Positions 4,261 through 21,550 of a stretch of DNA of 64,000 nt are shown one piece after another. Each line of letters begins with the position of its first letter. Position 1 is the first letter of the stretch. Position numbers and translations under genes: made by a program. The stretch is from positions 1 through 64,000 of the forward strand of contig JAAXHH010000032.1 of the NCBI GenBank assembly GCA_012270975.1. The letters run 5' to 3'. The notes below the pieces were generated by a model that was not told where the DNA came from, did no database searches, and saw nothing but the letters and a program-made list of their open reading frames with translations. The stretch comes from Candidatus Latescibacterota bacterium. Its GTDB lineage: Bacteria > JAAXHH01.

Positions 4261-4923
4261 TTATCCGTCGCTGTAGGGTTGCATGACCGTTTCCACCCGC
4301 TCGCGCACGGCCTGCTGCACCTCGCCGGGCGCGTGCGCGCCGTCGATGATCTCTATGCGATCCACGTCTTTTCTCCGGCGCGCCAACTCCAGGTAATTCT
4401 CCCGGATGGCGCGGAGCGTTACCAGATCCTCGAACAGTTCGGTATCCGAACGCGCCCGGCGTATGCGGTCCATGCAGACCTCGGCGGGCGCATCGATCAG
4501 CAGGGTCAGGTGGGGGTGTATCGCCCTCGCGTTGATCGACTCTATCCAGTCCAGCTCGCCGGGCATCTCCCGCCACTGGTAGGCGAAGGACGAGAGAAAG
4601 TAACGATCGCACAGCACGGGGATTCCCCGTTGGATGTTGGACTCTATTTCCGTCTTGACGTGGTCGATCCGGTCGGCGGCGAATAGCAGCGCGTGGCAGA
4701 TGCCGTCGAGTTCCACCCGGCGTTGAAGGGCTTCTTTCAACAGCCTGCCGATGGGGCGGTTGGTGGGTTCCCCGGTGGTATGCACGGGGCATCCGTAACG
4801 CGCCTCCATCCACTGGTGAAGCTGCTTCAGCTGGGTCGTCTTGCCCGCGCCGTCGATCCCTTCGATCACGATGAATGGCGCGGTGGCGTCGCCGCCATCA
4901 CCGCGGACCTCCTTCCCCGTCAT
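4261..4923 (-). CDS. tmk: Thymidylate kinase
   Basis: Phosphorylates dTMP to dTDP. The 220 aa show the P-loop IEGIDGAGKTTQLKQL (about residues 20-35), the DR(Y/x) motif in VLCDRYFLSSFAYQ and a LID-type region rich in Arg. The start ATG at 4923 overlaps the stop of the upstream DUF624 gene as ATGA, implying translational coupling. An open frame runs further upstream, but that is the shadow of the neighbouring gene. Confidence 0.95.
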   Translation of the reverse strand: MTGKEVRGDGGDATAPFIVIEGIDGAGKTTQLKQLHQWMEARYGCPVHTTGEPTNRPIGRLLKEALQRRVELDGICHALLFAADRIDHVKTEIESNIQRGIPVLCDRYFLSSFAYQWREMPGELDWIESINARAIHPHLTLLIDAPAEVCMDRIRRARSDTELFEDLVTLRAIRENYLELARRRKDVDRIEIIDGAHAPGEVQQAVRERVETVMQPYSDG

Positions 4924-5600
4924 GAATACCCCCATGGGCGGAGCAGGTCCCGCCATCCCCGCGCTTCTTCCAGCACGTTCCCGTCCGCTGAATCGTATCG
5001 CTTCAGCGTCTCTCTCAGTCCGGTGCTGCACAGCACGCCGACGGCCCCGATGCCCAGGAAGAGCAGGCCGACGCCGCTGGCCAGGCTGAAGGCCATGGTG
5101 AGGGATCCGCATAACAACAGCATGAAGGCATGCCGCGGGTTGTCTACGGCCAGGTATACACCCGACCGGACGATCTGCCAAACGGGGGTCTCGCTGCGCA
5201 GCATGAGCGGCAGTACGTAAACGGCCGTCATGCAGACGAACACGATCAGCCACATCATCACGCCGCCCAGGATCGCGCCCACCCACGGCCATTCGTCCAT
5301 GAGCCGCACGTAGAATAGCACATTGGCGGCAAGAAGCAACAGAACGCCCGCGTACAGACCGCAGATACAGAAACTCCGGGTCAGGTCGGCCCGCGTATGG
5401 GCGAAGAAATCCCGTATGCCGGTTTCTTCGTAGGCGGCGATCCGTCCGGTGACGCGGAACAGTCCGGCGAAGGCGAAAGGAAGGGTAACCAGCGGCAGGG
5501 CAAACAAAAGCCACAGGATGTTGATCACGATCAGCGTTCCCAGGTAGTCATAGGTATTCCAGAACCACTTTCTGAACAGTCCGGGTTCCTTGTCCGGCAT
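4920..5600 (-). CDS. DUF624 (YesL-like) integral membrane protein
   Basis: The 226 aa have about five hydrophobic segments (about residues 18-48, 76-97, 104-130, 150-172 and 173-190). The N-terminus FWNTYDYLGTLIVINILWLL resembles the DUF624/YesL family often found with sugar-uptake genes. The function is unknown. It is the first gene of the unit leading into tmk, with an ATGA overlap. Confidence 0.8.
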   Translation of the reverse strand: MPDKEPGLFRKWFWNTYDYLGTLIVINILWLLFALPLVTLPFAFAGLFRVTGRIAAYEETGIRDFFAHTRADLTRSFCICGLYAGVLLLLAANVLFYVRLMDEWPWVGAILGGVMMWLIVFVCMTAVYVLPLMLRSETPVWQIVRSGVYLAVDNPRHAFMLLLCGSLTMAFSLASGVGLLFLGIGAVGVLCSTGLRETLKRYDSADGNVLEEARGWRDLLRPWGYS

Positions 5601-5653
5601 AAACGGCGTACCCTGTCACGCGGCTATCGGCCGCGCGCCTTCGGCTTGTAAAA

Positions 5654-5723
5654 CCCGATTCCACAGGCCGACTCGGACTGCCGCAATGGTACACGAAGCC
5701 CGATTCCACAGGCCGACTCGGAC
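5654..5723. repeat. Two 25-bp direct repeats upstream of the aromatic operon promoter
   Basis: An identical 25-mer beginning CCCGATTCCACAGGCCGACT occurs at 5654-5678 and 5699-5723 (period 45 bp). ATGGTACA also recurs after each copy (near 5686 and 5741). The block sits between the DUF624 start and the operon promoter (5794). No gene is visible there. It may be a binding site or a simple duplication. Confidence 0.8.
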
Positions 5724-5793
5724 CGCTCGACAACGCCTGCATGGTACAGGCACCCCCTTGAAATCGCAACTGTTTTCTTGGTAACAAAAAACC

Positions 5794-5822
5794 TTGACTT
5801 TAACGGCAGACCGCTCTATATT
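5794..5822 (+). promoter_or_regulatory. Promoter of the aromatic amino acid supraoperon
   Basis: TTGACT (5794-5799), a 17-bp spacer and TATATT (5817-5822). Predicted transcription start is near 5829, about 48 nt before the leader peptide ATG. It is the only strong promoter seen before trpEG. Confidence 0.88.
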
Positions 5823-5876
5823 AGCGCAATCTATAATTGGCAGTCGAAGTGGTTCCACATCAGACACCGGACCGAA

Positions 5877-5996
5877 ATGACATCCGTTAACTCCTCCCGG
5901 TCATCCCGATTCTACTATTGGCGGAAGCAGAGCGATCTGTTTACCTGGTGGCCTTTTTATGGGACGAGGCGGCATGTCATGCGAAGCGGCGCCTGA
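5877..5996 (+). CDS. Aromatic leader peptide (39 aa) of a transcription attenuator
   Basis: Starting at ATG 5877 the peptide reads MTSVNSSRSSR then FYYW (residues 12-15), RKQSDL, FTWWPFY (22-28), and ends at TGA 5994-5996. Nine of 17 consecutive residues are Phe, Tyr or Trp, so ribosome stalling could report charging of all three aromatic tRNAs. It lies between a consensus promoter and an intrinsic terminator directly before trpEG, the architecture of trp/phe attenuators. No strong Shine-Dalgarno was found, and the start is chosen as the only ATG in frame after the predicted transcription start. Confidence 0.78.
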   Translation: MTSVNSSRSSRFYYWRKQSDLFTWWPFYGTRRHVMRSGA

Positions 5997-6034
5997 TTGA
6001 AGTAGATTCATCCTTCGTTGATTTGACCGGCCTC
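5966..6034 (+). promoter_or_regulatory. Candidate antiterminator pairing in the aromatic leader
   Basis: GAGGCGG (5966-5972), just after the WWPFY codons, can pair with CCGGCCTC (6027-6034), which contains the 5' arm of the terminator. A ribosome stalled at the Trp25 codon (5949-5951) would leave 5966-5972 free. One that reaches the stop at 5994 would cover it. This matches the classical attenuation model, but the pairing is short and was judged by eye. Confidence 0.5.
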
Positions 6035-6061
6035 TACCCTCAAAAGGTAGCGGCCTTTTTT
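6029..6061 (+). terminator. Intrinsic (attenuator) terminator before trpEG
   Basis: GGCC-T-CTACC (6029-6038) pairs with GGTAG-C-GGCC (6046-6055) around a 7-nt loop, with one internal mismatch, followed by six T (6056-6061). It is the clearest intrinsic terminator in the window and lies 33 nt after the leader peptide stop. Confidence 0.9.
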
Positions 6062-6137
6062 GTTTTATAGGGTTGATCAGCGGCCGCACAGGGTTGGGGA
6101 TGCTTCATCACCGAACCATGGAGAATGGGATTTGACG

Positions 6138-8354
6138 ATGCGTGTTACCCACATACATCTCGAAGCCATCGAATACCAGACCGATGGCGGCCTTTCTGTC
6201 AAGCGTTACGCGCAACACCTCTCGCCGGACGAAGCCATCGAGCCGGTGATCGACGACCTCGATTCGCATCCGGGCGCCTTGTTCGCGTCCGGATATGAGT
6301 ATCCCGGAAGGTATACCCGGTGGGACATGGGGTTCGTCGATCCGCCGATCCGGATCGAAACCCGCGAGAACGTGTTTCACATCCTGGCGTTGAACGCGCG
6401 GGGAAAGGTGTTGCTGCCTGCGATTCATGCGCGGATAGAAGGGATGCAGGTGACGGATTCCCTTTCTCGCCAGGAAGACCGCGTCAGCGGCGAAGTGCTT
6501 CTGCCCGGCGCGTATTTTCCGGAGGAACAGCGCAGCCGGCAACCCTCGGTATTCTCGATCCTGCGCGGAATCATCGGTCTGTTCTCCTGCCCGGACGAGC
6601 ATCACCTCGGCCTTTACGGCGCCTTCGGTTACGATCTCGCTTTTCAGTTCGAACCGATGGACTACCGCCAGCGCCGGCCGGCGGACCAGCGGGACCTGGT
6701 GCTGTACCTGCCCGACCGGCTGGTGACGGTCGATCACAATCGCGAGTCGGGCATCCGGTACGATTACGAATTCGACACGGGCGACGGATCTACGCAGGAC
6801 CTGCCCCGGGAGGGTGACGTTCAACCCTATCGCGGCGGTCGCGCCCCGACGGGCAGGGAATTCGAGAAGGGCGCGTATGGGGATGTCGTGCGAAAGGCGC
6901 ACGAATACTTCCGGAGAGGCGATCTGTTCGAGGTCGTCCCCAGCCAGACCTTTTACGAATCATGCCCCGACCCGCCTTCGGAGATCTTCCGGCGCCTCAG
7001 GGAACGAAACCCCGCGCCGTACGCCACGCTCATCAACCTGGGACAGCGGGAATACCTGGTGGGCGCTTCGCCCGAGATGTTCGTCCGGGGCGAGGGAATC
7101 CGCATCGAGACCTGTCCCATTGCAGGCACGGTAAGCCGGGGGAACGACGCGCTGAGCGATGCCGACCAGATCCTCAAGCTGCTGAGTTCGGAGAAAGAGG
7201 ACTCGGAACTGACCATGTGTACGGACGTGGACCGGAACGACAAGTCGCGGGTATGCGTGCCCGGAAGCGTCCGCGTCATCGGCCGGCGTCAGATCGAGAT
7301 GTACTCGCGGGTCATTCACACGGTCGACCACGTGGAAGGCATTCTGCGGCCGGAGTATGACGCGCTGGACGCTTTCCTCTCCCACGCCTGGGCGGTCACC
7401 GTTACGGGTGCGCCTAAAATCTGGGCCATGCGGTTCATCGAAGAAAACGAAAGGTCCTGCCGCGCGTGGTACGGCGGGGCGATAGGCTTCCTCGGTTTCG
7501 ACGGGAACATGAACACGGGGCTCACGCTCAGGACCATACGCATCAAGGACGGTATTGCCGAGGTAAGAGCCGGAAGCACGCTGCTGATGGACTCCAGCCC
7601 CGAGGACGAGGAACGCGAGACGGAACTCAAGGCCATGGCCTTCATCGACGCGATCCGTCGCCCCCGGGGATCGGGCGGGGGTTCGCAGCATCCCGGTTCC
7701 GCGGAAGACTCGGGCGCGGGGAAACGGGTGTTTCTGGTGGACTACGAGGACTCTTTCGTGCATACCCTGGCCAACTACCTTCGTCAGACCGGCGCCGAAG
7801 TAATGACGGTACGAACCGGGTTCACGCGGTCCCGTCTGGCGGAACTCATGGATGCCTGCGGCCCGGACCTGGTGTTTCTGTCGCCCGGCCCCGGCCGGCC
7901 GGCGGACTTCGACGTGGCGCTGGCCATCGACGTCGCGCTTGAACGGGCGCTGCCCGTATTCGGCGTCTGCCTCGGGCTTCAGGGCATCGTCGAGTATTTT
8001 GGCGGAACGCTGGGGGAACTGCCTTATCCCATGCACGGGAAAGAATCGCGCGTGATCGTTCGGGGCGGGGAGCTGTTCGAAGGAATCCCACCATCGTTCA
8101 CGGTAGGCCGCTATCATTCGCTGTTCGCCGAGCGGGAACAACTGCCGCTGGATCTTTCGGTCACGGCGGAGTCGGAAGACGGGATCGTCATGGCCGTCGA
8201 ACACCGCTCGCTGCCGGTAGCCGCGGTTCAGTTTCATCCCGAATCCATTATGACGCTCAAGGACAGAATCGGCCTTCGTCTTATCGGCAACCTCTTCAGA
8301 AAGCTGGTCCCCGTGGCCGATACGGTAGACGCCGGCAGGGAGGACGGCCCGTGA
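6138..8354 (+). CDS. trpE(G): Anthranilate synthase, fused TrpE-TrpG
   Basis: Converts chorismate and glutamine to anthranilate, the first Trp-specific step. Of 738 aa, residues 1 to about 515 are the TrpE chorismate-binding part (SPEMFVRGEG, CPIAGTVSRG, DRNDKSRVC, GGAIGFLGF). A Gly/Ser-rich linker leads to a class I glutamine amidotransferase (about 528-738) with nucleophile Cys in GVCLGLQ (about 611) and the His-Glu pair in QFHPES (about 699). The single-chain form resembles rhizobial TrpE(G). ATG 6138 is preferred because an upstream TTG lies inside the terminator. It is the first structural gene after the attenuator. Confidence 0.96.
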   Translation: MRVTHIHLEAIEYQTDGGLSVKRYAQHLSPDEAIEPVIDDLDSHPGALFASGYEYPGRYTRWDMGFVDPPIRIETRENVFHILALNARGKVLLPAIHARIEGMQVTDSLSRQEDRVSGEVLLPGAYFPEEQRSRQPSVFSILRGIIGLFSCPDEHHLGLYGAFGYDLAFQFEPMDYRQRRPADQRDLVLYLPDRLVTVDHNRESGIRYDYEFDTGDGSTQDLPREGDVQPYRGGRAPTGREFEKGAYGDVVRKAHEYFRRGDLFEVVPSQTFYESCPDPPSEIFRRLRERNPAPYATLINLGQREYLVGASPEMFVRGEGIRIETCPIAGTVSRGNDALSDADQILKLLSSEKEDSELTMCTDVDRNDKSRVCVPGSVRVIGRRQIEMYSRVIHTVDHVEGILRPEYDALDAFLSHAWAVTVTGAPKIWAMRFIEENERSCRAWYGGAIGFLGFDGNMNTGLTLRTIRIKDGIAEVRAGSTLLMDSSPEDEERETELKAMAFIDAIRRPRGSGGGSQHPGSAEDSGAGKRVFLVDYEDSFVHTLANYLRQTGAEVMTVRTGFTRSRLAELMDACGPDLVFLSPGPGRPADFDVALAIDVALERALPVFGVCLGLQGIVEYFGGTLGELPYPMHGKESRVIVRGGELFEGIPPSFTVGRYHSLFAEREQLPLDLSVTAESEDGIVMAVEHRSLPVAAVQFHPESIMTLKDRIGLRLIGNLFRKLVPVADTVDAGREDGP

Positions 8355-9358
8355 ACCGGACTGATGTCATCCTGACCGGAATCAAGCCGACGGGCAGTCC
8401 GCACCTTGGAAACTACGTCGGCGCCATCAAGCCCGCGCTGGATCTTGCGAGGGGATCCCCCGACGCGAACGCCATGTACTTCCTGGCGGACTTCCACGCC
8501 CTCACGCTCATCAAGGATCCCACGCTTTTCAGAGACCGGTGCCACGAACTTGCCGCCACCTGGATCGCCTGCGGCCTGGATCCCGACCGGCAGGTCTTTT
8601 ACCGCCAGTCGGATGTGCCCGAGGTGTTCGAACTGTCCTGGATCCTGTCCTGCTCCACGTCAAAGGGATGGATGAACCGCGCCCACGCGTACAAGGCTCA
8701 TGTCGATCAGAACACGCGGAGCGGTGACGGGGACCCGGACGCGGGCGTGAACATGGGGGTGTACTCCTACCCCATACTCATGGCGGCGGACATCCTGTTG
8801 TTCCAGGCGAAATACGTACCGGTCGGACGGGACCAGGAACAGCACATCGAGATAGCCAGGGACATCGCCGCCCGTTTCAACCGGAGCTACGGAGAGGTTT
8901 TCACGCTTCCCCTGTTCATATCGGATCCGTCGACTGCCGAGATTCCGGGTACGGACGGCAGGAAGATGAGCAAGGCCTACGACAACACCATCCCGCTTTT
9001 CGGACCGCGGGAAGCGTTGCGCAGGGCTATTTTCGGGATCAGGACGGATTCCAGCGCGCCAGGCGCACCCAAGGATCCCGACGCGTCGCTCGTCTTCCGG
9101 ATCTTCAGGCAGTTCGCGGACCGGGAGCGGACGGAGGCGATGCGGGATGGACTCCGGCAGGGCCGTATCACCTGGAAGGAAGCGAAGGAAGCGCTGTTTG
9201 ACCTCGTCGACGGCTTCCTGGACCGCCCGAGGGCGATGTACGACGATTTGATGTCCGACCGGCCCCGGATCGATCGCATATTGGAAGCGGGCGCCGGCCG
9301 GGCGCGGGAACTGGCCCGTCCGACCCTGGAAAAGGTGCGGCAGGCTGTAGGAAGATAG
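8351..9358 (+). CDS. trpS: Tryptophanyl-tRNA synthetase
   Basis: Class I synthetase that charges tRNA-Trp. The 335 aa show the HIGH-type motif PTGSPHLGNY (residues 13-22) and the KMSKS-type motif DGRKMSKAYDN (about 203). The GTG start overlaps the trpEG stop (GTGA), so the two are coupled. Its place inside the biosynthetic operon puts Trp-tRNA charging under the same attenuator that reads it. Confidence 0.96.
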   Translation: MNRTDVILTGIKPTGSPHLGNYVGAIKPALDLARGSPDANAMYFLADFHALTLIKDPTLFRDRCHELAATWIACGLDPDRQVFYRQSDVPEVFELSWILSCSTSKGWMNRAHAYKAHVDQNTRSGDGDPDAGVNMGVYSYPILMAADILLFQAKYVPVGRDQEQHIEIARDIAARFNRSYGEVFTLPLFISDPSTAEIPGTDGRKMSKAYDNTIPLFGPREALRRAIFGIRTDSSAPGAPKDPDASLVFRIFRQFADRERTEAMRDGLRQGRITWKEAKEALFDLVDGFLDRPRAMYDDLMSDRPRIDRILEAGAGRARELARPTLEKVRQAVGR

Positions 9359-9404
9359 CGGAGGAACGGCTTCAGGAAACGCAACGGAGAAAGGCAAGGC
9401 ATTC

Positions 9405-10415
9405 GTGATACAACAGGCCATTTCGAAAACCATCGAAGGGAACTCGCTGACCGAAGCGGAAGCGATGGAGGTCATGGAAGGCATCATGTCCGGAAACGCG
9501 ACGCCTGCGCAGATCGGCGCCTTGCTGGTCGCCTTCCGGCTGAAGGGCGAGACGATCGAGGAAGTCACCGGCTTCGCCAGGGTCATGCGCGCCAGGGCCA
9601 CCCGGATCGACTGCCGGGCGTACCCCATCGTGGACACCTGCGGTACGGGGGGAGACGGCAAGCATACCTTCAACATATCGACGGCGGCGGCCTTCGTGGC
9701 CGCGGCCGGCGGCGCCTTCATCGCCAAGCACGGCGGCCGGGCGGCATCGAGCAAGGCGGGCAGTGCCGACGTGCTGACGGCCCTGGGCGTGCATATCGAG
9801 ACGCCGCCGGAAAGGGTCTCGGCGTGCATCGACGAGATTGGCATCGGCTTCATGTTCGCCCCCGCTCTCCACTCGGCCATGCGGTTCGCGAGCGGTCCGC
9901 GCAGGGAACTCGGCGTGCGGACGGTGCTCAACCTCCTGGGACCGCTGACCAATCCGGCCGGCACGACGGCGCAGGTCATGGGCGTGTACGACGGAAGCGT
10001 CGTCCAGACCGCGGCGCACGTACTGAACAATCTGGGGGCGGAACGCGCCTTCGTGGTGCACAGCGCGGACGGGCTGGACGAGATCACGACCACGGCCTCC
10101 ACCCACGTGGCGGAAGTCAGGGACGGCACGGTCAGGACCTACGATGTCGCGCCGGAAGACTTCGGTCTGCCGCGGGCTTCCATCAAGGATTTGAAAGGCG
10201 GCGAGGTGGATGAGAACGCAGCGATCATCCGGTCCGTCCTGGCCGGAGAAGAGGGTCCCCGCAGGGACATCGTACTGTTGAATGCCGCCGCGGCGATCGT
10301 TGCCGGCGGGCGTGCGGAGGATTTCGACGAAGGTATCGCCCGGGCGGCCCGGGCGATCGACTCCGGCGCGGCCCGGGAAAAGCTCGACGCGTTGATCAGG
10401 ATGACCAACGAGTAG
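9405..10415 (+). CDS. trpD: Anthranilate phosphoribosyltransferase
   Basis: Transfers phosphoribose from PRPP to anthranilate. The 336 aa contain the PRPP-binding loop DTCGTGGDGKHTFNIST (from about residue 77), KHGGRAASSKAGSAD and RRELGVRTVLNLLGPLTNPA. The start is GTG 9405. It is preceded by a 46-bp gap after trpS without a terminator. Confidence 0.97.
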   Translation: MIQQAISKTIEGNSLTEAEAMEVMEGIMSGNATPAQIGALLVAFRLKGETIEEVTGFARVMRARATRIDCRAYPIVDTCGTGGDGKHTFNISTAAAFVAAAGGAFIAKHGGRAASSKAGSADVLTALGVHIETPPERVSACIDEIGIGFMFAPALHSAMRFASGPRRELGVRTVLNLLGPLTNPAGTTAQVMGVYDGSVVQTAAHVLNNLGAERAFVVHSADGLDEITTTASTHVAEVRDGTVRTYDVAPEDFGLPRASIKDLKGGEVDENAAIIRSVLAGEEGPRRDIVLLNAAAAIVAGGRAEDFDEGIARAARAIDSGAAREKLDALIRMTNE

Positions 10416-10467
10416 GTACCTGGAGACCGGCGGGAGACAGGAGCATGACGGGTAAAGCGTGGCAGCC

Positions 10468-11268
10468 ATGAATATCCTGGACCAGATCGTAAAGCACAAG
10501 ACAGGTGAAGTCGAGGACCGAAAGAGCCGGAATCCGCTGCCTCTTGTCGAGCCCGGACACCGCGTGGGCCTCCGCCCCTTCGACCAGGCGTTGAAGCAGG
10601 GGGACGGCGTCGGGGTCATTGCCGAATTCAAGAAGGCTTCGCCGTCTAAAGGCGCGATACGTCCCGACGCGGTACCCGATGAGATCGGACCGGTATACGC
10701 GGCTCACGGGGCCTCGGCCATTTCGGTGTTGACCGACAGGCGGTTCTTCCAGGGGTGCGGCGAGGACCTGGTGGCGCTTCGCCGGAGCGTGCCGGTGCCC
10801 GTACTGCGCAAGGAGTTCATTATAGACGAATACCAGGTCCACGAGACCGCGGCCATGGGCGCGGACGCCATGCTGCTGATCGTTGCGGTCCTGGACGACG
10901 CCCGCCTGGCGGCCCTGCAGCAGGCCGCGGCGGCATACGGTCTGCACTGTCTGGTGGAAGTACACGACGAGCGGGAGCTGGACCGGGCCCTGGAAGCCGG
11001 CAGCCGCATCATCGGCGTCAACAACCGGGACCTGCTGGATTTCACGGTTTCGCTGGATACTTCCCTGAGACTGAGACCACGCATTCCCGATGGTATCGTC
11101 ACTGTCAGCGAGAGCGGGATCCATACGCGTGAGGACGTCCTGCTCCTGCAGCAGGCGGGATTCGACGCCGTACTCGTGGGCGAGTCCCTGATGGCGGCGG
11201 ACGAGATAGGCAGCCAACTGGACGCCCTGCTGGGCCGGGCGCCTGTGCGTACAGGAAGCGGGGCTTGA
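10468..11268 (+). CDS. trpC: Indole-3-glycerol phosphate synthase
   Basis: Closes the indole ring from CdRP. The 266-aa TIM barrel shows IAEFKKASPSKG (catalytic Lys), VLRKEFIIDEYQ, LVEVHDERELDRAL, GVNNRDL and SESGI. ATG 10468 (MNILDQIV) matches the usual N-terminus. GTG 10459, nine bases upstream, is the alternative. It is a separate protein from TrpF, which overlaps its end. Confidence 0.96.
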   Translation: MNILDQIVKHKTGEVEDRKSRNPLPLVEPGHRVGLRPFDQALKQGDGVGVIAEFKKASPSKGAIRPDAVPDEIGPVYAAHGASAISVLTDRRFFQGCGEDLVALRRSVPVPVLRKEFIIDEYQVHETAAMGADAMLLIVAVLDDARLAALQQAAAAYGLHCLVEVHDERELDRALEAGSRIIGVNNRDLLDFTVSLDTSLRLRPRIPDGIVTVSESGIHTREDVLLLQQAGFDAVLVGESLMAADEIGSQLDALLGRAPVRTGSGA

Positions 11269-11291
11269 GTTACCTCCCCGCGGATAGAACC

Positions 11292-11906
11292 ATGAACACG
11301 GTCAAGATCAAGATTTGCGGCATCACGAACGCCGCGGACGCCGCCGCGGCCGTCCACGCGGGCGCGGACGCACTGGGCTTTATATTCTACGCAGGCAGCC
11401 CCCGATGCGTGGAGCCGGAGCGGGCCGCGGAAATCGTGGCCGGCCTGCCGCCGCTCGTCGTCCCGGTGGGCGTATTCGTGAACGCGACGGTCGACGAGGT
11501 CGACGAAGTCTGCGGGAACACGGGCATCCAGGTCGCACAGCTCCACGGCGACGAATCGCCGGGCTTTTGCAGCAAACTGGACCGGCCCGTCATCAAGGCC
11601 CTTCGCGTCAGGGACGAATCCTGGAAGTCCGATGCCGCGGCCTATGCCGTCGGTGCGGTGTTGCTCGATACTTTCGCCGAAGACCGGTACGGCGGTACGG
11701 GCGTTCCGTTCGACTGGCGCCTCGTGGAAGGCAGTCCCCACCGCATCATACTGAGCGGCGGGCTGAACCCCCGCAACGTGGCCGGGGCCGTGCGGAGCGT
11801 GCGGCCCTACGCCGTGGACACGGGAAGCGGCGTGGAACGGGAACCGGGCCTGAAGGACCACGGTAAGATCCGGGCCTTCGTGGGGGCCGCGAGGGGCGCG
11901 ACATGA
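11292..11906 (+). CDS. trpF: Phosphoribosylanthranilate isomerase
   Basis: Isomerises PRA to CdRP. About 204 aa from ATG 11292, with KICGITN (catalytic Cys) at the N-terminus, ALGFIFY, VGVFVNA, QLHGDE, LLDT and a C-terminal VDTGSGVE phosphate loop. A TTG at 11265 overlaps the trpC stop and could start a 213-aa form, but the extra nine residues do not look like the family. It ends in an ATGA overlap with aroE. Confidence 0.95.
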   Translation: MNTVKIKICGITNAADAAAAVHAGADALGFIFYAGSPRCVEPERAAEIVAGLPPLVVPVGVFVNATVDEVDEVCGNTGIQVAQLHGDESPGFCSKLDRPVIKALRVRDESWKSDAAAYAVGAVLLDTFAEDRYGGTGVPFDWRLVEGSPHRIILSGGLNPRNVAGAVRSVRPYAVDTGSGVEREPGLKDHGKIRAFVGAARGAT

Positions 11907-12796
11907 CCACTTCGAGAGAAGCAGGATCCCCGGGACCCGCTGTTTCCGGTTCGACCCGCGTGGTCGGCGTATGCGGCCAGGGGATCGGATACACCCTTTC
12001 GCCGGCCATGCACAACGCCGCCTTTCGACATTGCGGCCTGGATTACGTGTATGTAACCTTTGAAGTCGCGACAACCGCCGTTCGGCAGGCGGTAGACGGG
12101 ATCCGGGGACTCGGACTGGCGGGCGTCAACGTGACCAAGCCGCTCAAGACGGACGTGCTGCCCTACCTGGACGAGGTGTCCGACGAGGCCCGGAGGATCG
12201 GTTCGGTCAATACCATCGTCAATCGTTCGGGCCGGCTCGCCGGCGCTTCGACGGATGGCGCGGGACTGTTGCGGGCGCTCGGGGAAAAGGGGGTATCCGT
12301 CGAAGGTTCCAGGGTGCTGATCCTGGGCGCGGGCGGTGCGGCCCGCGCGGCCTGCGATCTGGCGAAGCAGGCGGGCGCCGGTTCGATTGCCATAGCCGCG
12401 CGCAACGCGTCACGGGCCCGTGACACCGCGCAGGTGGGAGACGCTTCGGTGGTCTCTCTGGCGTCGTACGAACTGGGTCCGGCGCTCGGGAACGCCGACC
12501 TGGTCATCAACGCGATCCCCACGGATCTGACCCTGGACGGGGACTGGTTCAAAGCGGACCAGTTCGTCTACGACACACGTTACGACCAGGAGGAAACCGC
12601 GTTGATCAGGTGCGCCCGGTCCCGGGGTGCGGGCGCGTCGAACGGCATCGATATGCTGCTGTTTCAAGGCGCGGCGTCCTTTGAAATCTGGACCGGCCGG
12701 CCGGCACCCGTCGAGGTGATGAGAAGCGCCCTGGAAGACCAGTTGCGGCGCCGGGCAGGCCGGGAAGAAAACGGTCATACGGGGCAACCGCTATAG
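11903..12796 (+). CDS. aroE: Shikimate dehydrogenase
   Basis: NADPH-dependent reduction of 3-dehydroshikimate. The 297 aa have substrate residues in YTLSPAMHNAAF, the catalytic Lys in NVTKPLKTDVL, ASTDGAG and the Rossmann loop ILGAGGAARAA. The start ATG overlaps the trpF stop. The N-terminal 20 residues before GVCGQGIGYTLSP are longer than usual. Confidence 0.95.
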   Translation: MTTSREAGSPGPAVSGSTRVVGVCGQGIGYTLSPAMHNAAFRHCGLDYVYVTFEVATTAVRQAVDGIRGLGLAGVNVTKPLKTDVLPYLDEVSDEARRIGSVNTIVNRSGRLAGASTDGAGLLRALGEKGVSVEGSRVLILGAGGAARAACDLAKQAGAGSIAIAARNASRARDTAQVGDASVVSLASYELGPALGNADLVINAIPTDLTLDGDWFKADQFVYDTRYDQEETALIRCARSRGAGASNGIDMLLFQGAASFEIWTGRPAPVEVMRSALEDQLRRRAGREENGHTGQPL

Positions 12797-12907
12797 CGAT
12801 CGAGCGGAGGCCCGGAGGCCGCCCACCCGGATACACCGGCCGGCGGCGTTGAAAAGCGTGACGGTCCGGCGCTGATCGGACCGGGAACCTCGAAATCTGG
12901 AGACGGC

Positions 12908-14065
12908 ATGTTACGATACCTGACCGCAGGAGAATCTCACGGACCGGCGATATCCGCTATCCTCGAAGGACTGCCCGCGGGGGTCCCGGTCGCGGCGGAC
13001 GAGATCAACCGCGACCTGAAACGGCGCCAGGGCGGATATGGACGGGGCCGCAGAATGCAGATCGAGACCGATACGATCGAAATCCGGGGCGGCGTGCGCC
13101 ACGGAAAGACCATGGGCGGCCCGGTTTCCCTGGTCGTGCAGAACCGGGACTGGAAGAACTGGACGGACGTAATGTCGATCGAGGAGGCCGACGGTCCGGT
13201 GAGGCGCCAGGTGACGCGGCCCCGGCCGGGACATGCCGACCTGGCGGGCGGACTGAAATACGACCGCCGCGACCTGCGGGATATCCTGGAGCGGGCCAGC
13301 GCCCGGGAAACGACCATGCGGGTGGCCGTCGGCGCGATCGCCCGTTCGTTGCTGTCGGAGTTCGACATCCAGGTGCTCAGCCACGTCGTCCGCATCGGAC
13401 GGGTGGACGCGGATGTGAGCGGTCTTTCGAACGAAGAAATCCGGGATAGGGCCGAGGCGTCGCCCGTGCGTTGCGCCGATACGGATGCCGCGCAGAAGAT
13501 GATCGGAGAAATCGACCGCGCGAAGTCCCTCAAGGACACGATCGGCGGCGTCTTCGAGGTCAAGGTGCTGAACGTGTCCCCCGGCCTGGGCAGCCACGTG
13601 CAGTGGGACCGCAAGCTCGACGGACGACTGGCCCAGGCGGTCATGAGCATCCAGGCCGTGAAGGGCGTCGAGATCGGATTGGGCTTCGGGGTGACCCGGG
13701 TCCTCGGTTCCGAGGTCCATGACGAGATCTTCTACGGCGACGGCCGCTTCTACCGTAAGACGAACCGGGCCGGCGGCATCGAGGGCGGCATGACCGAAGG
13801 CGAGGAAATCGTCGTTCGCGGCGCCCTCAAGCCCATCGCGACCCTGATGCGTACCATCATGTCTGTGGATATAGAGACCAAGGAAGCCTTCGATTCCGCC
13901 AAGGAGCGATCGGACGTCTGCACCGTACCGGCCGCCGGCGTGATCGGGGAAGCGGTGGTGGCCTTCGTCATCGCCGACGCCATGCAGGAGAAATTCGGCG
14001 GTGACAGCCTGGAGGAAATGAAGCGAAACTACCTGGGCTACAAGGACCAGTTGGACCGGTACTAG
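12908..14065 (+). CDS. aroC: Chorismate synthase
   Basis: Converts EPSP to chorismate with reduced FMN. The 385 aa carry the three family signatures: GESHGPAISAILEGLPAG at the N-terminus, RPGHADLAGGLKYDRRDLRD and ERASARETTMRVAVGA in the middle, and TGGV/EGGMTEGEEIVVRGALKPI-type residues later. It is preceded by 111 bp without a recognisable gene or terminator. Confidence 0.97.
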   Translation: MLRYLTAGESHGPAISAILEGLPAGVPVAADEINRDLKRRQGGYGRGRRMQIETDTIEIRGGVRHGKTMGGPVSLVVQNRDWKNWTDVMSIEEADGPVRRQVTRPRPGHADLAGGLKYDRRDLRDILERASARETTMRVAVGAIARSLLSEFDIQVLSHVVRIGRVDADVSGLSNEEIRDRAEASPVRCADTDAAQKMIGEIDRAKSLKDTIGGVFEVKVLNVSPGLGSHVQWDRKLDGRLAQAVMSIQAVKGVEIGLGFGVTRVLGSEVHDEIFYGDGRFYRKTNRAGGIEGGMTEGEEIVVRGALKPIATLMRTIMSVDIETKEAFDSAKERSDVCTVPAAGVIGEAVVAFVIADAMQEKFGGDSLEEMKRNYLGYKDQLDRY

Positions 14066-14144
14066 TGGATAAACCTGATCTCTATGATAGCGCGCGCAAC
14101 CCCGGCTTACACTGATCGAGGCGCGCATGTAAGGCAGGCGGAAC

Positions 14145-15749
14145 GTGGGGAAAACAGAACGCGGTAAAGCAGGCGGTATCGTCCTGATCGGCTTCATGGG
14201 CACCGGGAAGACGGTGGTGGGACGGCGGCTGGCAGGCGCCCTCGGCGTGCCCTTCGTGGATACCGACACCCTGATCGAGGAGAAGACCGCGACGAGTATT
14301 CCGACGCTCTTCAAGACGCGGGGCGAGACCGGCTTCCGGGCGATCGAGAAAGAGGTCATTCACAGCCTCGCCGACGGGGAGCGCCGGGTGATCGCCACGG
14401 GCGGCGGCGCGGTTCTCGATCCGGACAACTTCGATGTGCTCAAATCCTTCGGTTCGGTCATTCACCTGAGTGCGCCGGCGTCGACGATCCTGGCACGCAC
14501 GAAAGGCGACGCCGGGGTGCGGCCCCTGCTGGCCGGCGACGACCCGCTGGAACGGATCCGGTCCCTTCAACGGGAGCGCGCACCGGTCTACGGCCGGGCG
14601 GACCACGAAGTAGATACGTCACGGCATACCGTAGACGAGACCGTGGAGATGGTCATGGCATGGGCTGGAAACACCGAGCGCGTAATCCGGGTGGACCTGG
14701 GGGCCGACGGCTACGATATCGTCATCGGACCCGACTGCCTGGACCGGCTGGGTCCCATGATGAGAAGCTTCGACCTGACCGATCGCGCGCTGGTCGTAAC
14801 CCATCCGGGCATCGCGCAGCTTTATGGAGAACGGACGACCGACTCGCTGCGAGCGGCCGGATACGAACCGGACCTGATCGAGGTGCCGGACGGCGAAGAA
14901 CAGAAATCGCTGCAATGGGCCGACAAGCTCTACGACGCGATGCTGTCCCACCGCATGGACCGCCGCTCACCCGTCATCGCGCTGGGCGGTGGGGTGATCG
15001 GGGACCTGACCGGCTTCGCCGCGGCCACCTTCCTGCGCGGCATACCGTTCATACAGGCGCCCACTTCGCTCCTGGCCCAGGTGGACGCCAGCGTGGGCGG
15101 CAAGGTCGCCGTGGACCACCGTCACGGGAAGAACCTGATCGGCGCGTTCTACCAGCCCCTGCTCGTACTGGCCAGCCTGGATACGCTCGACAGCCTGCCC
15201 GACCGGGAACTGCGCGCGGGCATGGCGGAAGTGATCAAGTATGGGGTCATTGCAGACGCCACCTTTTTCGCCTATATTGAGGGTCGCCTCGACGAGATAC
15301 TCAGGCGCGACTACGGCGTGCTGGCGCACCTGGTGGCCCGGTCCTGCGAGATCAAGGCCGACGTCGTCGCCGGGGACGAACGCGAGCACGGACGGCGGGC
15401 CATTCTCAATTTCGGCCACACCATGGGACATGCCATCGAGACGCGGACCGGCATGCTGCACGGGGAGGCCATTGCGATCGGCATGGTCTACGCGGCCCGC
15501 GTGGCGGAACGCTTGGGCATGCTGGACGGCGGGAGCGTCCAAAGGCTGAGCGAACTGCTGAGACGTACGGGACTGCCGCAACGTTGCGAGAGGCTGGACG
15601 TCTCCGGTACAATCGAAACCATGAAGTTCGACAAGAAGTCGGTCGGGGGCCGCCTGCGATTCATCCTGCCGAACCGCATCGGCGAAGTGGCCATCCGCGA
15701 CGACGTTCCCGACGAGTACATCAGGACTGTCCTGACCTCGGGAACCTGA
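14145..15749 (+). CDS. aroKB: Fused shikimate kinase / 3-dehydroquinate synthase
   Basis: Two pathway steps on one 534-aa chain. Residues about 1-170 are shikimate kinase (Walker [28 protein letters not shown]). Residues about 180-534 are 3-dehydroquinate synthase ([56 protein letters not shown]). The start is GTG 14145. The two enzymes are non-consecutive in the pathway (step 2 and step 5). No internal stop or shift was seen, so it is a true fusion. Confidence 0.95.
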
Positions 15750-15784
15750 ACAAAGGCGTTTTCACGCGTAAACGGTACGGGATC

Positions 15785-16231
15785 ATGGAAATACTCGTGT
15801 TGCACGGTCCGAACCTGAACATGCTGGGTGTACGGGAGCCGGAGGTCTACGGTACCGATACGCTGGATGACATCAACCGGTCCCTCCAGTCGGCCGCGGC
15901 GGATCGGGGGGTCGCATTGCGTATTCTTCAGTCCAATCACGAAGGCGTGCTGGTGGACGAGATCCAGCAGGCCCTCGAATGGGCGGATGGTATTCTGATC
16001 AACCCCGGCGCGTACACCCACACGAGCATCGCCCTGCGCGATGCCATCGTCGCCGTGGGCCTGCCCGTCGTGGAAGTCCACATGTCCGATATCCACACCC
16101 GGGAGAAGTTCCGGCACCATTCCTATATCGAGGCTGTGGCGATCGGTCAGATCTGCGGACACGGCAGCGACAGCTATCGGCTGGGCCTGGAAGCCCTGGT
16201 GAATCACGTCGCGAACAGGAGCGAAGCGTGA
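15785..16231 (+). CDS. aroQ: 3-Dehydroquinate dehydratase, type II
   Basis: Dehydrates 3-dehydroquinate. From ATG 15785 the 148 aa begin [20 protein letters not shown] with the family signature, followed by [21 protein letters not shown] and [15 protein letters not shown]. The size is that of the small dodecameric enzyme. A longer open frame upstream overlaps aroKB and is rejected. The stop overlaps the trpB GTG (GTGA). Confidence 0.95.
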
Positions 16232-17433
16232 CAGCAACCGTACTGCCCGACGAAAGAGGGCATTTCGGGGTCTTCGGTGGCCGCTACGTCCCGGAAACGC
16301 TGATGACGGCCCTGGACGAGCTTCTCGACGTGTATGAAGCGGCAAAGCGGGATCCGGCCTTCGAGGACGAATTTCGCTATTACCTGGGAGACTACGTAGG
16401 CCGTCCTTCCCCGCTCTACTACGCGGAACGGCTGACGGAGACCCTCGGCGGCGCGCGAGTTTATCTCAAGCGGGAAGACCTGAACCACACGGGCGCCCAC
16501 AAGATCAACAACACCATCGGCCAGATCCTGCTGACCCGGCGCATGGAGAAGCCCCGGATCATCGCCGAGACCGGGGCCGGACAGCACGGCGTGGCCACGG
16601 CGACGGTGGCGGCACGTTTCGGCCTGGAATGCGATGTCTACATGGGGTCCGAGGACATGGAACGCCAGGCGCTGAATGTATTCCGCATGCGCCTGATGGG
16701 GAGCCGGGTCATCGGCGTCGACGCGGGAAGCCGTACGCTGAAGGACGCGCTGAACGAGACTCTGCGCGACTGGGCGACGAACGTCCGCCATACCCATTAC
16801 ATTATCGGATCGGTGGCGGGGCCTCATCCCTTCCCCATGATGGTACGTGATTTCCAGTCGGTCATCGGCCGCGAAGCACGCGAGCAGATCCTCGAAAAGG
16901 AAGGCCGGCTGCCGGATGCGCTCGTCGCCTGCGTGGGAGGAGGCAGCAACGCCATAGGGCTCTTTCATCCCTTTCTCGACGACGACGTTCGACTGGTCGG
17001 CGTGGAAGGCGCGGGGCACGGGCTCGATACGGGTATGCACGCGGCGACGCTCGGCGCGGGATCGCCGGGCGTGCTTCACGGCGCCATGAGCTATACGGGA
17101 CAGGACGCCAACGGCCAGATCCAGGTCGCCCATTCCATTTCCGCAGGACTGGATTATCCCGGTGTGGGGCCCGAGCACAGCTACCTGAAGGACTCCGGCC
17201 GGGCGGAATACGTCAGCGTGACCGACGGCGAGGCGCTGGAGGCCTTCGGCCTGCTGTCCAGGGTCGAAGGCATCATACCCGCCCTGGAAAGTGCCCACGC
17301 CGTCGCCCATATCGCCCGGATCGCTCCGGAAATGGGCCGGGAGGAGGTCATCGTCGCCGGGCTGTCGGGCCGCGGGGACAAGGATGTCCAGCAGGTGTAC
17401 GGATTTATGGACCGGGAGCGGATGGGGTGCTGA
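16228..17433 (+). CDS. trpB: Tryptophan synthase beta chain
   Basis: Condenses indole and serine using PLP. About 401 aa from GTG 16228, which overlaps the aroQ stop. N-terminal [15 protein letters not shown], the PLP lysine in [31 protein letters not shown], the phosphate loop [10 protein letters not shown] and [13 protein letters not shown] near the end. It is followed directly by trpA. Confidence 0.97.
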
Positions 17434-18255
17434 ATGAATCGCATTGAAGAGACTTTCGCATCGCTTAAGTCCTCGGATCGCAAAGCGCTGATCCCTTATA
17501 TCATGGCCGGGGATCCGGACCTGGAGACGACCGCCGCGCTGGTCGTGGAACTGGATCGCCGCGGCGCCGACCTGGTCGAACTGGGCGTGCCTTTTTCCGA
17601 TCCCATCGCGGACGGCCCCACGATACAGCGCGCCGGGCTGAGGGCCCTGGACCAGGGTACGACCCTTCGGGACATCGTCGATACGGTCGGAGCCATCCGG
17701 GATCGGTCCGGTATACCGATCGTCCTGATGACCTATTACAACCCGGTGCTCGCGTACGGGATCGAGGACCTCTGCCGGGATGCTGCCCGCGCTGGCGTGG
17801 ACGGTCTGATCGTGCCCGACCTTCCTCCGGAAGAGGGCGCCGAACTGTCCGACGCCTGCCGGCGGCACGGACTTACCGTCGTCTTCCTGGTGGCGCCCAC
17901 GAGCACGTCGACCCGGATCGAGCTGGTGAACCGCCACACCACGGGATTCGTCTACTGCGTATCCCTGACCGGCGTCACGGGGGCCCGGGGAAAACTGGCG
18001 GACGGAGTGGACGGGTTTATGGCGCTGGTTCGGTCCCACACGGACCGGTCCCTTGGCCTGGGATTCGGCATATCTTCGCCGGAACAGGCCGGTGAGGCGT
18101 CGCGGCTGGCCGACGGGGTCATCGTGGGCAGCGCCATCATCAACGTAATGGAAGAACACGCCGGCGAGCCGGAACTGCTCCGGATCGTGGGCGAATACGT
18201 GGCTTCTTTGAGAGACGGCATCGACGGAAAGACTCCGGTCACCTTGCCGGGGTAA
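17434..18255 (+). CDS. trpA: Tryptophan synthase alpha chain
   Basis: Cleaves indole-3-glycerol phosphate to indole for TrpB. The 273-aa TIM barrel includes PYIMAGDPDLE, the catalytic Glu/Asp region in LVELGVPFSDPIADGPTIQRA (split here as LVELGVPFSDPIADGP), VPDLPPEE and VSLTGVTGAR. The ATG abuts the trpB stop (TGAATG). Confidence 0.97.
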   Translation: MNRIEETFASLKSSDRKALIPYIMAGDPDLETTAALVVELDRRGADLVELGVPFSDPIADGPTIQRAGLRALDQGTTLRDIVDTVGAIRDRSGIPIVLMTYYNPVLAYGIEDLCRDAARAGVDGLIVPDLPPEEGAELSDACRRHGLTVVFLVAPTSTSTRIELVNRHTTGFVYCVSLTGVTGARGKLADGVDGFMALVRSHTDRSLGLGFGISSPEQAGEASRLADGVIVGSAIINVMEEHAGEPELLRIVGEYVASLRDGIDGKTPVTLPG

Positions 18256-18299
18256 CCGCGGCGCGTGCGGATCCCGTCCGTCGCAGGAGAGCTCGGGGA

Positions 18300-18416
18300 A
18301 TGACGATGATAGAGATTTCAGCCAAACCGGGGGATGCGTGTGGGAGTCCAGGAGGCCGTACCGGTCTTCGCGACTCCCACGTATTTCACCTCCCGTTTCA
18401 TGCTTTCGCCTGGTAA
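18300..18416 (+). CDS. Possible second leader peptide (38 aa) before aroH
   Basis: ATG 18300 has AGGAGA nine bases upstream and opens a 38-codon ORF. It ends VFHLPFHAFAW and then TAA. Three Phe codons and a terminal Trp codon directly before the stop, just upstream of the chorismate mutase / DAHP synthase / tyrA / pheA block, suggest a stalling leader. No terminator with a T-run follows. It may also be chance, as the protein resembles nothing known. Confidence 0.35.
   Translation: MTMIEISAKPGDACGSPGGRTGLRDSHVFHLPFHAFAW
18340..18380 (+). repeat. Inverted repeat (hairpin) in the trpA-aroH gap
   Basis: GTGGGAGTC (18340-18348) is perfectly complementary to GACTCCCAC (18372-18380), with a 23-nt loop and possible wobble extension. 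No poly-T follows. It lies inside the short ORF at 18300-18416 and could be an RNA control or processing element. Confidence 0.6.
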
Positions 18417-18446
18417 AGTCCGGCATCCACTATCCCTGGAGGGATC

Positions 18447-18812
18447 ATGGTACGAGGCGTTCGTGGCGCGATAACCGTTGAATCGAACACTTCCGAAGCT
18501 ATTTGCGAGGCATCGCGCCGGTTGCTTACAACGATCGTCGAACGAAACCGCATCGAATTGGAACAGATCATCAGCGTGTTTTTTTCATCGACGAAGGATC
18601 TCGATGCGCAGACCCCCGCTTTCGGCGTACGCCAGATGGGCTGGACATCGATTCCCCTGTTCTGCACGCAGGAGATGGAGGTCCCCGGAAGTCTTCCCGG
18701 ATGCATACGGGTGCTGGTTCATGTAAACACGGAAAAACCGCAGGGTGAAATACGGCATGTGTACCTGGACGGCGCCGTCGTGCTCCGGCCGGACATTGTC
18801 GAGGGAGGTTGA
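18447..18812 (+). CDS. aroH: Chorismate mutase, AroH type
   Basis: Converts chorismate to prephenate, the branch to Phe and Tyr. The 121 aa match the monofunctional Bacillus-type trimeric enzyme: [19 protein letters not shown] at the N-terminus, [16 protein letters not shown] in the middle and [13 protein letters not shown] at the end. A GGAGGG ribosome site is present. The stop is one base before the DAHP synthase ATG. Confidence 0.95.
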
Positions 18813-18813
18813 A

Positions 18814-19830
18814 ATGGTGGTTGTAATGAAACTCGGGGCTACGGAAGAACAGAAGGAGCACGTCCGGGAAACAATCCGGGCATTCGGCTGTAAACCACGG
18901 GACATACAGGGTGACGAGATGTCCATCATCTGTGTCATCGGCGATACCCTGAGCCTGTCACCGGAACAGTTTGAAATCCTGGACGGGGTGGACCGCGTCC
19001 AGCGTATCCAGCGGCCGTACAAGCTGGTGAGCCGGGAGGTGCAGCCGCACAAGACCAGGTTCCAGGTGGGCAACGTGACCATCGGCGGCGACGGCATCAC
19101 CATCATCGCAGGGCCCTGCTCCGTGGAATCCTACGAGCAGTTTCAGACCGCTGCGCAGCACGCCCGGGCAGGAGGAGCGCACATCATCCGGGGCGGAGCG
19201 TTCAAGCCGAGGACTTCCCCTTATAGCTTCCAGGGTCTCGGAGAGGAAGGTCTCAAGATCATGGCCCGGGTCAGCGAGGAAACGGGTCTGCCGACCATCT
19301 CGGAGGTAATGGAACCGGAGACGGAACCCATGGTCTCGGAGTACGTGGACATGTTGCAGATCGGCGCCAGGAACATGCAGAACTATCCGCTGCTGAATGC
19401 AGTGGGACAGAGTTCCAGGCCCGTAATGCTCAAGCGGGGGATGTCCGCCACGCTCGAGGAGATGTTGCTGGCGGCCGAGTACATCCTGGCGGCGGGGAAC
19501 CACAACGTCGTCCTGTGCGAACGGGGCATACGGACGTTTGAAACGTGGACGCGGAATACGCTGGACATCTCCGCCGTTCCCGTGTTGCAGAAATACACCC
19601 ACCTGCCCGTGTTCATCGACCCGAGCCACGGGACCGGCAACGCGGATTTCGTGGGACCGGCGTCACGGGCGGCCGTCGCGGTCGGCGCGGACGGGCTCAT
19701 GATCGAGATGCATCCCAGTCCCGAGCGCGCGATGTCGGACGGAGACCAGTCCCTGACCCCCGAAGCGTTTACCTCGTTGGTCCCGGAACTGCAGGCGGTC
19801 GCGGCGGCAGTGAACCGTACCATCGGCTGA
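18814..19830 (+). CDS. aroF: 3-Deoxy-7-phosphoheptulonate (DAHP) synthase, type I-beta with N-terminal regulatory domain
   Basis: First committed step of the shikimate pathway. The 338 aa have a ferredoxin-like domain at residues 1 to about 70 ([22 protein letters not shown]), the kind that gives feedback control in the Thermotoga-type enzyme. The barrel follows with [44 protein letters not shown] and IDPSHGTG. The start was placed at ATG 18814, after GGGAGG and next to the aroH stop. Confidence 0.95.
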
Positions 19831-19838
19831 GTTCGGTT

Positions 19839-21541: not shown

Positions 21542-21550
21542 AGGATCGGA

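Follow-up and report, generated by a model that had tools for sequence, protein, structure and literature searches.

Can one short leader peptide report on three amino acids at once? The question is raised by a locus in the window, a 64,000-nucleotide (nt) stretch of a Candidatus Latescibacterota genome (contig JAAXHH010000032.1; genome G000, 4.06 Mb in 160 contigs), where an open reading frame (ORF) rich in Phe, Tyr and Trp codons lies between a promoter-like site (5794–5822) and an intrinsic terminator (6029–6061), ahead of a 15-gene aromatic cluster that runs from trpE(G) to pheA. The ORF (5877–5996, plus strand) opens with ATG at 5877–5879, closes with TGA at 5994–5996 and encodes a peptide of 39 codons, MTSVNSSRSSRFYYWRKQSDLFTWWPFYGTRRHVMRSGA. 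ORF reading bears out the initial annotation, which had described F, Y, Y, W followed by F, W, W, F, Y within 17 residues: F12 Y13 Y14 W15 and F22 W24 W25 F27 Y28 together span F12 to Y28. From sequence comparison and folding models, we consider it very likely that the element works as a three-input attenuator of transcription, ribosome-mediated like the trp leaders. Its parts are as follows.

5766–5779, plus strand: conserved box GCAACTGTTTTCTT, upstream of the promoter (pattern search of genus genomes)
5794–5822, plus strand: promoter-like site, −35 TTGACT, 17-nt spacer, −10 TATATT (pattern scan; kept in relatives)
5877–5908, plus strand: segment 1, predicted to pair with the segment 2 region (5961–5981) in the free leader as a protector hairpin (minimum-free-energy fold)
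5877–5996, plus strand: leader peptide ORF of 39 codons, among them codons for Phe, Tyr and Trp (ORF reading; same length in all 12 genus genomes)
5910–5921, plus strand: first aromatic cluster, F12 Y13 Y14 W15 (ORF reading; comparison of positions 13–14)
5940–5960, plus strand: second aromatic cluster, F22 T W24 W25 P F27 Y28 (ORF reading; counterparts in G001, G013, G014 and G015)
5966–5986, plus strand: segment 2, predicted 5′ strand of the antiterminator, GAGGCGGCATGTCATGCGAAG, within the ORF (folding, recoding)
6013–6038, plus strand: segment 3, predicted 3′ strand of the antiterminator and 5′ strand of the terminator (folding, 16-sequence alignment)
6029–6061, plus strand: intrinsic terminator, segments 3 and 4 paired, with a T6 tail (fold; all 16 genomes share the nine stem pairs)

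The leader ORF is the only one of 593 window ORFs of 20–60 amino acids to hold at least seven F, Y or W within 17 residues with all three kinds represented. Aromatic residues make up 9 of its 39 positions, versus 5.8% in 26 window proteins (binomial P 2.6e-4, uncorrected for ORF number); such single-leader P values are modest, and we place no weight on them. Two traits of leader-peptide attenuators can be read from the sequence of this putative leader, namely codons for the products of the pathway in a short upstream ORF and an intrinsic terminator between that ORF and the first gene.

The initial annotation had placed a unit making Phe, Tyr and Trp downstream, and family searches recover genes for all three branches. 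The cluster comprises the following genes.

6138–8354, plus strand: trpE(G), fused anthranilate synthase (NCBIfam TIGR01815, 1099 bits vs a cut-off of 739)
8351–9358, plus strand: trpS, tryptophanyl-tRNA synthetase (TIGR00233)
9405–10415, plus strand: trpD (TIGR01245)
10459–11268, plus strand: trpC (NF001377)
11265–11906, plus strand: trpF (NF002298)
11903–12796, plus strand: aroE, shikimate dehydrogenase (TIGR00507)
12908–14065, plus strand: aroC, chorismate synthase (TIGR00033)
14145–15749, plus strand: aroK-aroB fusion (aroKB), shikimate kinase and 3-dehydroquinate synthase (TIGR01357 over residues 190–527; shikimate kinase models match residues ~12–172 below their cut-offs)
15785–16231, plus strand: aroQ, type II 3-dehydroquinate dehydratase (TIGR01088)
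16228–17433, plus strand: trpB (TIGR00263)
17434–18255, plus strand: trpA (TIGR00262)
18447–18812, plus strand: aroH, chorismate mutase (Pfam CM_1, E 3.6e-47)
18814–19830, plus strand: aroF, DAHP synthase (TIGR01361)
19836–20702, plus strand: tyrA, prephenate dehydrogenase (Pfam PDH_N and PDH_C; NCBIfam models below their cut-offs)
20699–21541, plus strand: pheA, prephenate dehydratase (Pfam PDT, E 2.5e-60)

The sole shikimate-pathway gene absent from the cluster in these searches is aroA (EPSP synthase). Neighbouring genes overlap or are separated by gaps within about 110 nt, except for the 191 nt between trpA and aroH. A promoter-like scan of 5700–21700 returned two sites vs 2.6 expected and thus decides neither for nor against internal promoters. 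Between trpA and aroH lies a strong inverted repeat, GTGGGAGTC...GACTCCCAC (18340–18380), which has no T run and is possibly a processing site or a weak terminator.

Both signals that flank the leader in the initial annotation are present. At the 5′ end, a sigma-70-like scan finds one site, TTGACT-17-TATATT (5794–5822; 0.5 expected in shuffles), and at the 3′ end a terminator-like scan finds one site at 6034–6050 (0.9 expected), the full stem being GGCC(U)CUACC / GGUAG(C)GGCC at 6029–6055 followed by T6 at 6056–6061, with a folding energy of −15.3 kcal/mol (6020–6062). Judged on the scans only, neither the promoter nor the terminator stands out clearly from chance; the case is carried by conservation. 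The nine-pair terminator stem is identical in all 16 genomes sampled from the phylum, of which 12 belong to one genus and four (G001, G013, G014 and G015) represent two further genera of the same family and two further families. The promoter-like sites of all 12 genus genomes have a 17-nt spacer and lie 54 nt from the end of the −10 element to the ATG, with TATAAT as the −10 element in 10 of them. G013 and G014 carry TTGACT-17-TATAAT. The automatic pattern chose another site in G001 and TTGACT-17-TATTTT in G015; by eye the sites read TTGACT-16-TATATT and TTGACT-15-TATATT, respectively. The recurrence of a promoter-like site upstream of the leader in relatives also argues against a transcription start 3′ of the terminator.

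Upstream of this site, the box GCAACTGTTTTCTT occurs exactly once per genome in all 11 genus genomes searched (the reversed-pattern control gave 0), and the same or a similar box is present at other distances in G001, G013, G014 and G015; it is perhaps an operator for some regulator. The leader is adjoined by a divergent gene for a DUF624/MusI-like membrane protein (4920–5600, minus strand; weak family matches below cut-off), which also stands beside the leader in all seven relatives compared. The intergenic stretch at about 5650–5725 holds near-identical copies of CCCGATTCCACAGGCCGACTCGGA, with similar repeats in G008 and G012.

What has selection kept in the leader itself? In all 16 phylum genomes, trpE is preceded by a leader that carries Phe, Tyr and Trp codons and by the shared terminator. 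A BLAST search started from the leader of the window located 15 of these leaders, and the G015 leader was found by reading the intergenic sequence. The alignment in relatives that had been proposed as a check thus finds, in every genome, an ORF that combines the three aromatic codon kinds. Its length is 39 codons in all 12 genus genomes and in G013, 40 in G001, 32 in G014 and 48 in G015. Between genera the peptides diverge, as far apart as MTTVTYFPISFMGYWRQSFLFTWRPFYGKRRDVKRSHEHE and MSFMLPVFFSYSFRPFWQAFRFVWRPFYPAIARRDTTRS, with little in common beyond the aromatic clusters; the second cluster has the counterparts FTWRPFY (G001), FVWRPFY (G013), FTRWFF (G014) and FTPWYFY (G015). Within the genus the peptide is nearly invariant after codon 14, including a basic tail without aromatic residues. 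Across codons 15–39, none of the 10–11 four-fold sites differs from the window in any of the 11 other genus genomes, a pattern expected under constraint on the RNA itself; in seven neighbouring genes, 24–34% of four-fold sites differ (three genus genomes compared). Indels within the ORF are absent from the genus and are multiples of three in G001. The only single-base insertion, in G011, lies 3′ of the leader stop; it breaks a 50-codon frame overlapping the leader (5918–6070), whose end beyond the terminator is variable and which we rejected as coding.

The element appears to belong to the cluster and not to its first gene. The order trpD-trpC-trpF-aroE-aroC-aroKB-aroQ-trpB-trpA is kept, as far as contigs reach, in seven relatives (G007, G008, G012, G001, G013, G014 and G015; the G014 and G015 contigs end early, and that of G013 ends before aroF). 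Six of these seven have a separate trpE, accompanied by a separate trpG in all but G014, the contig of which ends too early. Ten of the 12 genus genomes instead carry fused trpE(G) where the other two have the genes separately, and trpS follows the fusion in nine of these 10 (the window and eight of nine others; in G011 it is not within 1500 nt). The two genus genomes without the fusion, G008 and G012, keep leaders 96% identical to that of the window, which argues that the leader belongs to the cluster and is not part of an imported gene. We therefore rejected a joint import of the leader with trpE(G), given the separate trpE and trpG in these two genomes.

The proposed mechanism can be set out in steps. 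Transcription would start just 3′ of 5794–5822, and RNA polymerase would be trailed by a ribosome translating the 39 leader codons. A shortage of charged Phe-, Tyr- or Trp-tRNA would hold the ribosome at one of the aromatic codons from F12 to W25, leaving segment 2 (5966–5986) free to pair with segment 3 (6013–6034); the terminator would be blocked, and the polymerase would enter the aromatic cluster. If all three tRNAs were plentiful, the ribosome would cover segment 2 as it moved to the stop codon, segment 3 would pair with segment 4, and transcription would stop near 6061. In a leader that is not translated, segments 1 and 2 would pair and the terminator would again form. We infer that the ORF is translated, that shortage of any one of the three charged tRNAs stalls ribosomes on it and that a single transcript spans the 15-gene cluster.

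The antiterminator in this scheme is predicted to pair 5966–5986 with 6013–6034. The arms named in the initial annotation are partly borne out: GAGGC at 5966–5970 can pair with GCCTC at 6030–6034, but the predicted antiterminator is longer. Over the 16-sequence alignment, 94.7% of its cells are paired, falling to 29–51% when the strands are slid by one to three columns, and four pairs have both sides changed; most of these double changes rest on single divergent sequences. None of 500 shuffles was as high in pairing or in double changes, two of the five measures used, whereas the covariation score was reached in 21 and the number of pair types in 43. A second antiterminator register shows 87.2% pairing and five double changes. 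Being invariant, the terminator stem contributes no covariation. The protector pairs between segments 1 and 2 are also present in the alignment consensus.

Folding models give a position-dependent switch. We computed the probability of the terminator, P(terminator), for folded RNA that begins 10, 12 or 14 nt downstream of the first A-site base and extends through the T run. With the 12-nt offset, in all 12 genus genomes the value, given to one decimal, did not exceed 0.2 with the ribosome at any of the aromatic codons F12 to W25 and was 1.0 for positions F27 up to and including the stop codon; G001 folded likewise except at F21 (0.6). With the 10-nt offset P(terminator) was 0.1–0.6 at F22, and with the 14-nt offset 0.4–1.0 at W25. 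In this downstream-only model, antiterminator and terminator would therefore exclude each other according to ribosome position throughout the genus (12 of 12) and, F21 excepted, in G001. Full-leader folds showed no switch in G013 and a partial switch in G014 and G015. In the free leader without a ribosome, P(terminator) was 1.00 in 15 of 16 genomes and 0.34 in G015, which is consistent with a protector hairpin releasing the terminator in an untranslated leader.

The same contrast appears before segment 4 has been made. At this stage the terminator 5′ arm in the genus is engaged in pairing at 0.67–0.71 for stalls from F12 to W25, at 0.37 for F27 and at 0.15–0.16 for Y28, rising again to 0.33–0.63 at S37 and standing at 0.25–0.36 at the stop codon. 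In G001 the values are 0.75–0.80 up to W23, 0.16 at Y27 and 0.38 at the stop; G015 switches clearly (0.71–0.79 up to F31, 0.20 at F34 and 0.33 at the stop), and the contrast is weak in G013 and G014. Overall, the folding proposed as a check of the initial annotation yields a predicted, conserved pairing that excludes the terminator, clean in 13 of 16 genomes and weak or absent in three.

Much of this antiterminator appears to be written into the codons. When the stretch after the last Trp was recoded synonymously (codons 26–39 in G000 and G007, 24–40 in G001), the switch was kept in only 4, 4 and 3 of 200 trials, that is, abolished in 196, 196 and 197, respectively. The antiterminator is thus specified in large part by which synonymous codons the ORF uses. 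A weaker control, in which the spacer behind the stop codon was shuffled, left the switch intact in 87, 49 and 29 of 200 trials (G000, G007 and G001).

The weakest link of the model concerns the RNA upstream of the ribosome. When this RNA was allowed to re-pair with segment 2 around one stalled ribosome, the terminator won at equilibrium in nearly all cases, and kinetics or ribosome queuing would have to favour the local antiterminator. The 69 nt from the ATG to W24 leave room for queued ribosomes. With the upstream part of the ORF blocked by initiating or queued ribosomes, P(terminator) dropped in many genomes; it went under 0.2 in some of them, changed little in others and did not drop in G013. 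An initiating ribosome combined with a leading ribosome at the stop codon also weakened the terminator in some genomes (0.06 in G011, 0.41 in G008).

Comparison with known systems places the mechanism in a classical class. Rfam leader families include Trp_leader and Phe_leader. At gathering score, the window matched Rfam at four tRNAs only, with no leader family and no T-box; the same two kinds were absent from 5780–6137 at E up to 10, and nine relative loci gave nothing at gathering score. Multi-amino-acid leaders are known, as the ilvGMEDA and thr leaders of E. coli read several amino acids, and the statement in the initial annotation that classical leaders sense one amino acid does not hold. 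PMC1183508 lists the ilvGMEDA and thr attenuators, and PMC11109978 describes a Corynebacterium ilvB upstream ORF rich in Ile, Leu and Val codons; as proposed for the element here, these leaders each cover several amino acids of one operon, but those are branched-chain or Thr/Ile and not aromatic. As described in PMC1262725 and PMC1183508, trp operon attenuators in Proteobacteria and Actinobacteria read Trp for Trp-making operons and resemble this leader in that the trp genes are preceded by a short Trp-codon ORF and by hairpins acting as protector, antiterminator and terminator; the actinobacterial ones have a GGCC core (PMC1262725), and a GGCC arm occurs here. The leader here differs in its added Phe and Tyr codons and in a cluster that makes all three aromatics.

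Among aromatic leaders, the closest is AroR of Corynebacterium glutamicum (Neshat et al. 2014, cited through PMC11802643), which likewise precedes a DAHP synthase operon, at aroF, and carries Phe-Tyr-Phe; no Trp codons are mentioned there, the response is to Phe and not to Tyr, and, unlike here, the operon is not a whole-pathway cluster. The E. coli pheA and pheST leaders in the same source use ribosome-mediated attenuation on an aromatic amino acid, as proposed here, with Phe only, and the uORFC-13-1 motif ahead of Acholeplasma aroF (PMC8632094) is a predicted aromatic-pathway upstream-ORF attenuator with a run of Phe codons only. PMC1173090 cites attenuators ahead of tyrA-containing supraoperons from the Merino attenuator database, and PMC4027176 describes a TRAP-regulated leader with 11 (G/U)AG repeats. 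A Phe/Tyr/Trp leader appears in none of the sections available from PMC11802643, PMC8632094, PMC1262725, PMC2965389, PMC1173090, PMC3847290, PMC1183508 and PMC11109978. The matches listed, in which subscription journals are little covered, include Trp-only, Phe-only and Phe-Tyr leaders with no Phe/Tyr/Trp leader, and those on this phylum include no leader-peptide attenuator. The combination, of which the initial annotation knew no description, is thus new as far as our literature search shows, and an earlier prediction of it is possible. When an element model (R1) was run against 384 genomes, matches at E up to 1 per genome came from 14 of the 368 genomes outside the phylum (best 0.0011), which is about chance; all 16 phylum matches are members of the model, making that part circular, and the stricter filters used lose weak matches.

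Are all three amino acids in fact read? Genus positions 13–14 are YY, HY, NY, DY or YA, with at least one Tyr in all 12 genomes. Y13 and Y14 are the only Tyr codons within the predicted sensing zone, Y28 lying past the predicted switch point, and seven of the 12 genus genomes and three others have a single Tyr codon in that zone. Directly after the last Trp cluster, 14 of 16 genomes preserve an F-Y pair, even though its place coincides with the predicted switch point or lies beyond it. An attenuator of the trp type could carry its Tyr codons as passengers and respond in practice to Trp alone, or to Trp and Phe. Short ORFs with adjacent Trp codons precede trpE(G) within 500 nt in 28 of 78 loci from other groups (80 returned, less two from this genus; a few of the 78 have under 500 nt of upstream sequence), and Trp is the rarest of the three residues in window proteins (0.6%), favouring sensitivity to Trp. 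Furthermore, the Tyr codon of the C. glutamicum Phe-Tyr-Phe leader is not sensed according to PMC11802643, and codons thus do not prove sensing. Against this, Tyr is kept in the sensing zone of all 12 genus genomes while positions 13–14 vary, each of the four divergent leaders holds Tyr and several Phe codons, and the cluster also makes Phe and Tyr. A mixed aromatic cluster is found in none of the 78 loci and in all 16 phylum leaders. We regard a Trp-centred response with passenger Tyr codons as rather unlikely, if the most substantial of the alternatives.

Two further readings were weighed. The conserved sequence might be a terminator or other RNA element under protein or small-molecule control, its ORF untranslated; the weak Shine-Dalgarno match (GGA 6–8 nt 5′ of the ATG) and the conserved box upstream fit such an element, but the in-frame aromatic codons in all 16 genomes, the constant ORF length in the genus and the frame-keeping indels speak for translation, and no Rfam riboswitch or T-box family was found at gathering score, which leaves this account very improbable. 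The near-invariance of the genus peptide after codon 14, non-aromatic basic tail included, could instead point to the nascent peptide as the sensor. TnaC is an arrest peptide that binds free Trp, and the leader might act similarly, or in trans like peTrpL, a peptide reported to do so (PMC7298713). The RNA is equally invariant, with no four-fold site differing and the tail coding for segment 2, and across genera the peptide diverges while mainly the aromatic clusters persist; a peptide sensor is the least probable reading that we weighed.

The aromatic trio persists across leader peptides that have otherwise diverged, ahead of a cluster that makes all three amino acids, and the attenuator reading with mixed aromatic input draws support from both comparison and folding; the computable results that would speak against it came out the opposite way. 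On balance, the leader probably works as a three-input OR gate in RNA, one leader sensing charged Phe-, Tyr- and Trp-tRNA and setting transcription of the whole pathway, in all 16 phylum genomes and beyond the replacement of adjoining genes. If this is true, attenuation can match a whole branched pathway and not one end product, a control element can outlast the genes first under its control, and leader-peptide attenuation extends to a little-studied phylum. Natural variants differ in the Tyr or Trp codons that they keep, and would thus allow a clean test of several tRNAs feeding one switch.

A crude scan of the phylum for similar attenuators ahead of ilvB and hisG, 14 loci each, gave no convincing second case, with no His-rich ORF at the hisG loci. 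Two ilvB loci (L161 and L165) have an Ile/Leu/Val-rich short ORF ~400 nt upstream with a weak terminator-like site; its frame shifts across the 11 aligned genus loci, and we rejected it. In those 11 loci (L157–L167), no leader peptide was recognised in the last ~190 nt before ilvB, a stretch that is strongly conserved in all of them and includes TTGACA together with a hairpin-like motif, GACGAAATC..CGGTTTCGT.
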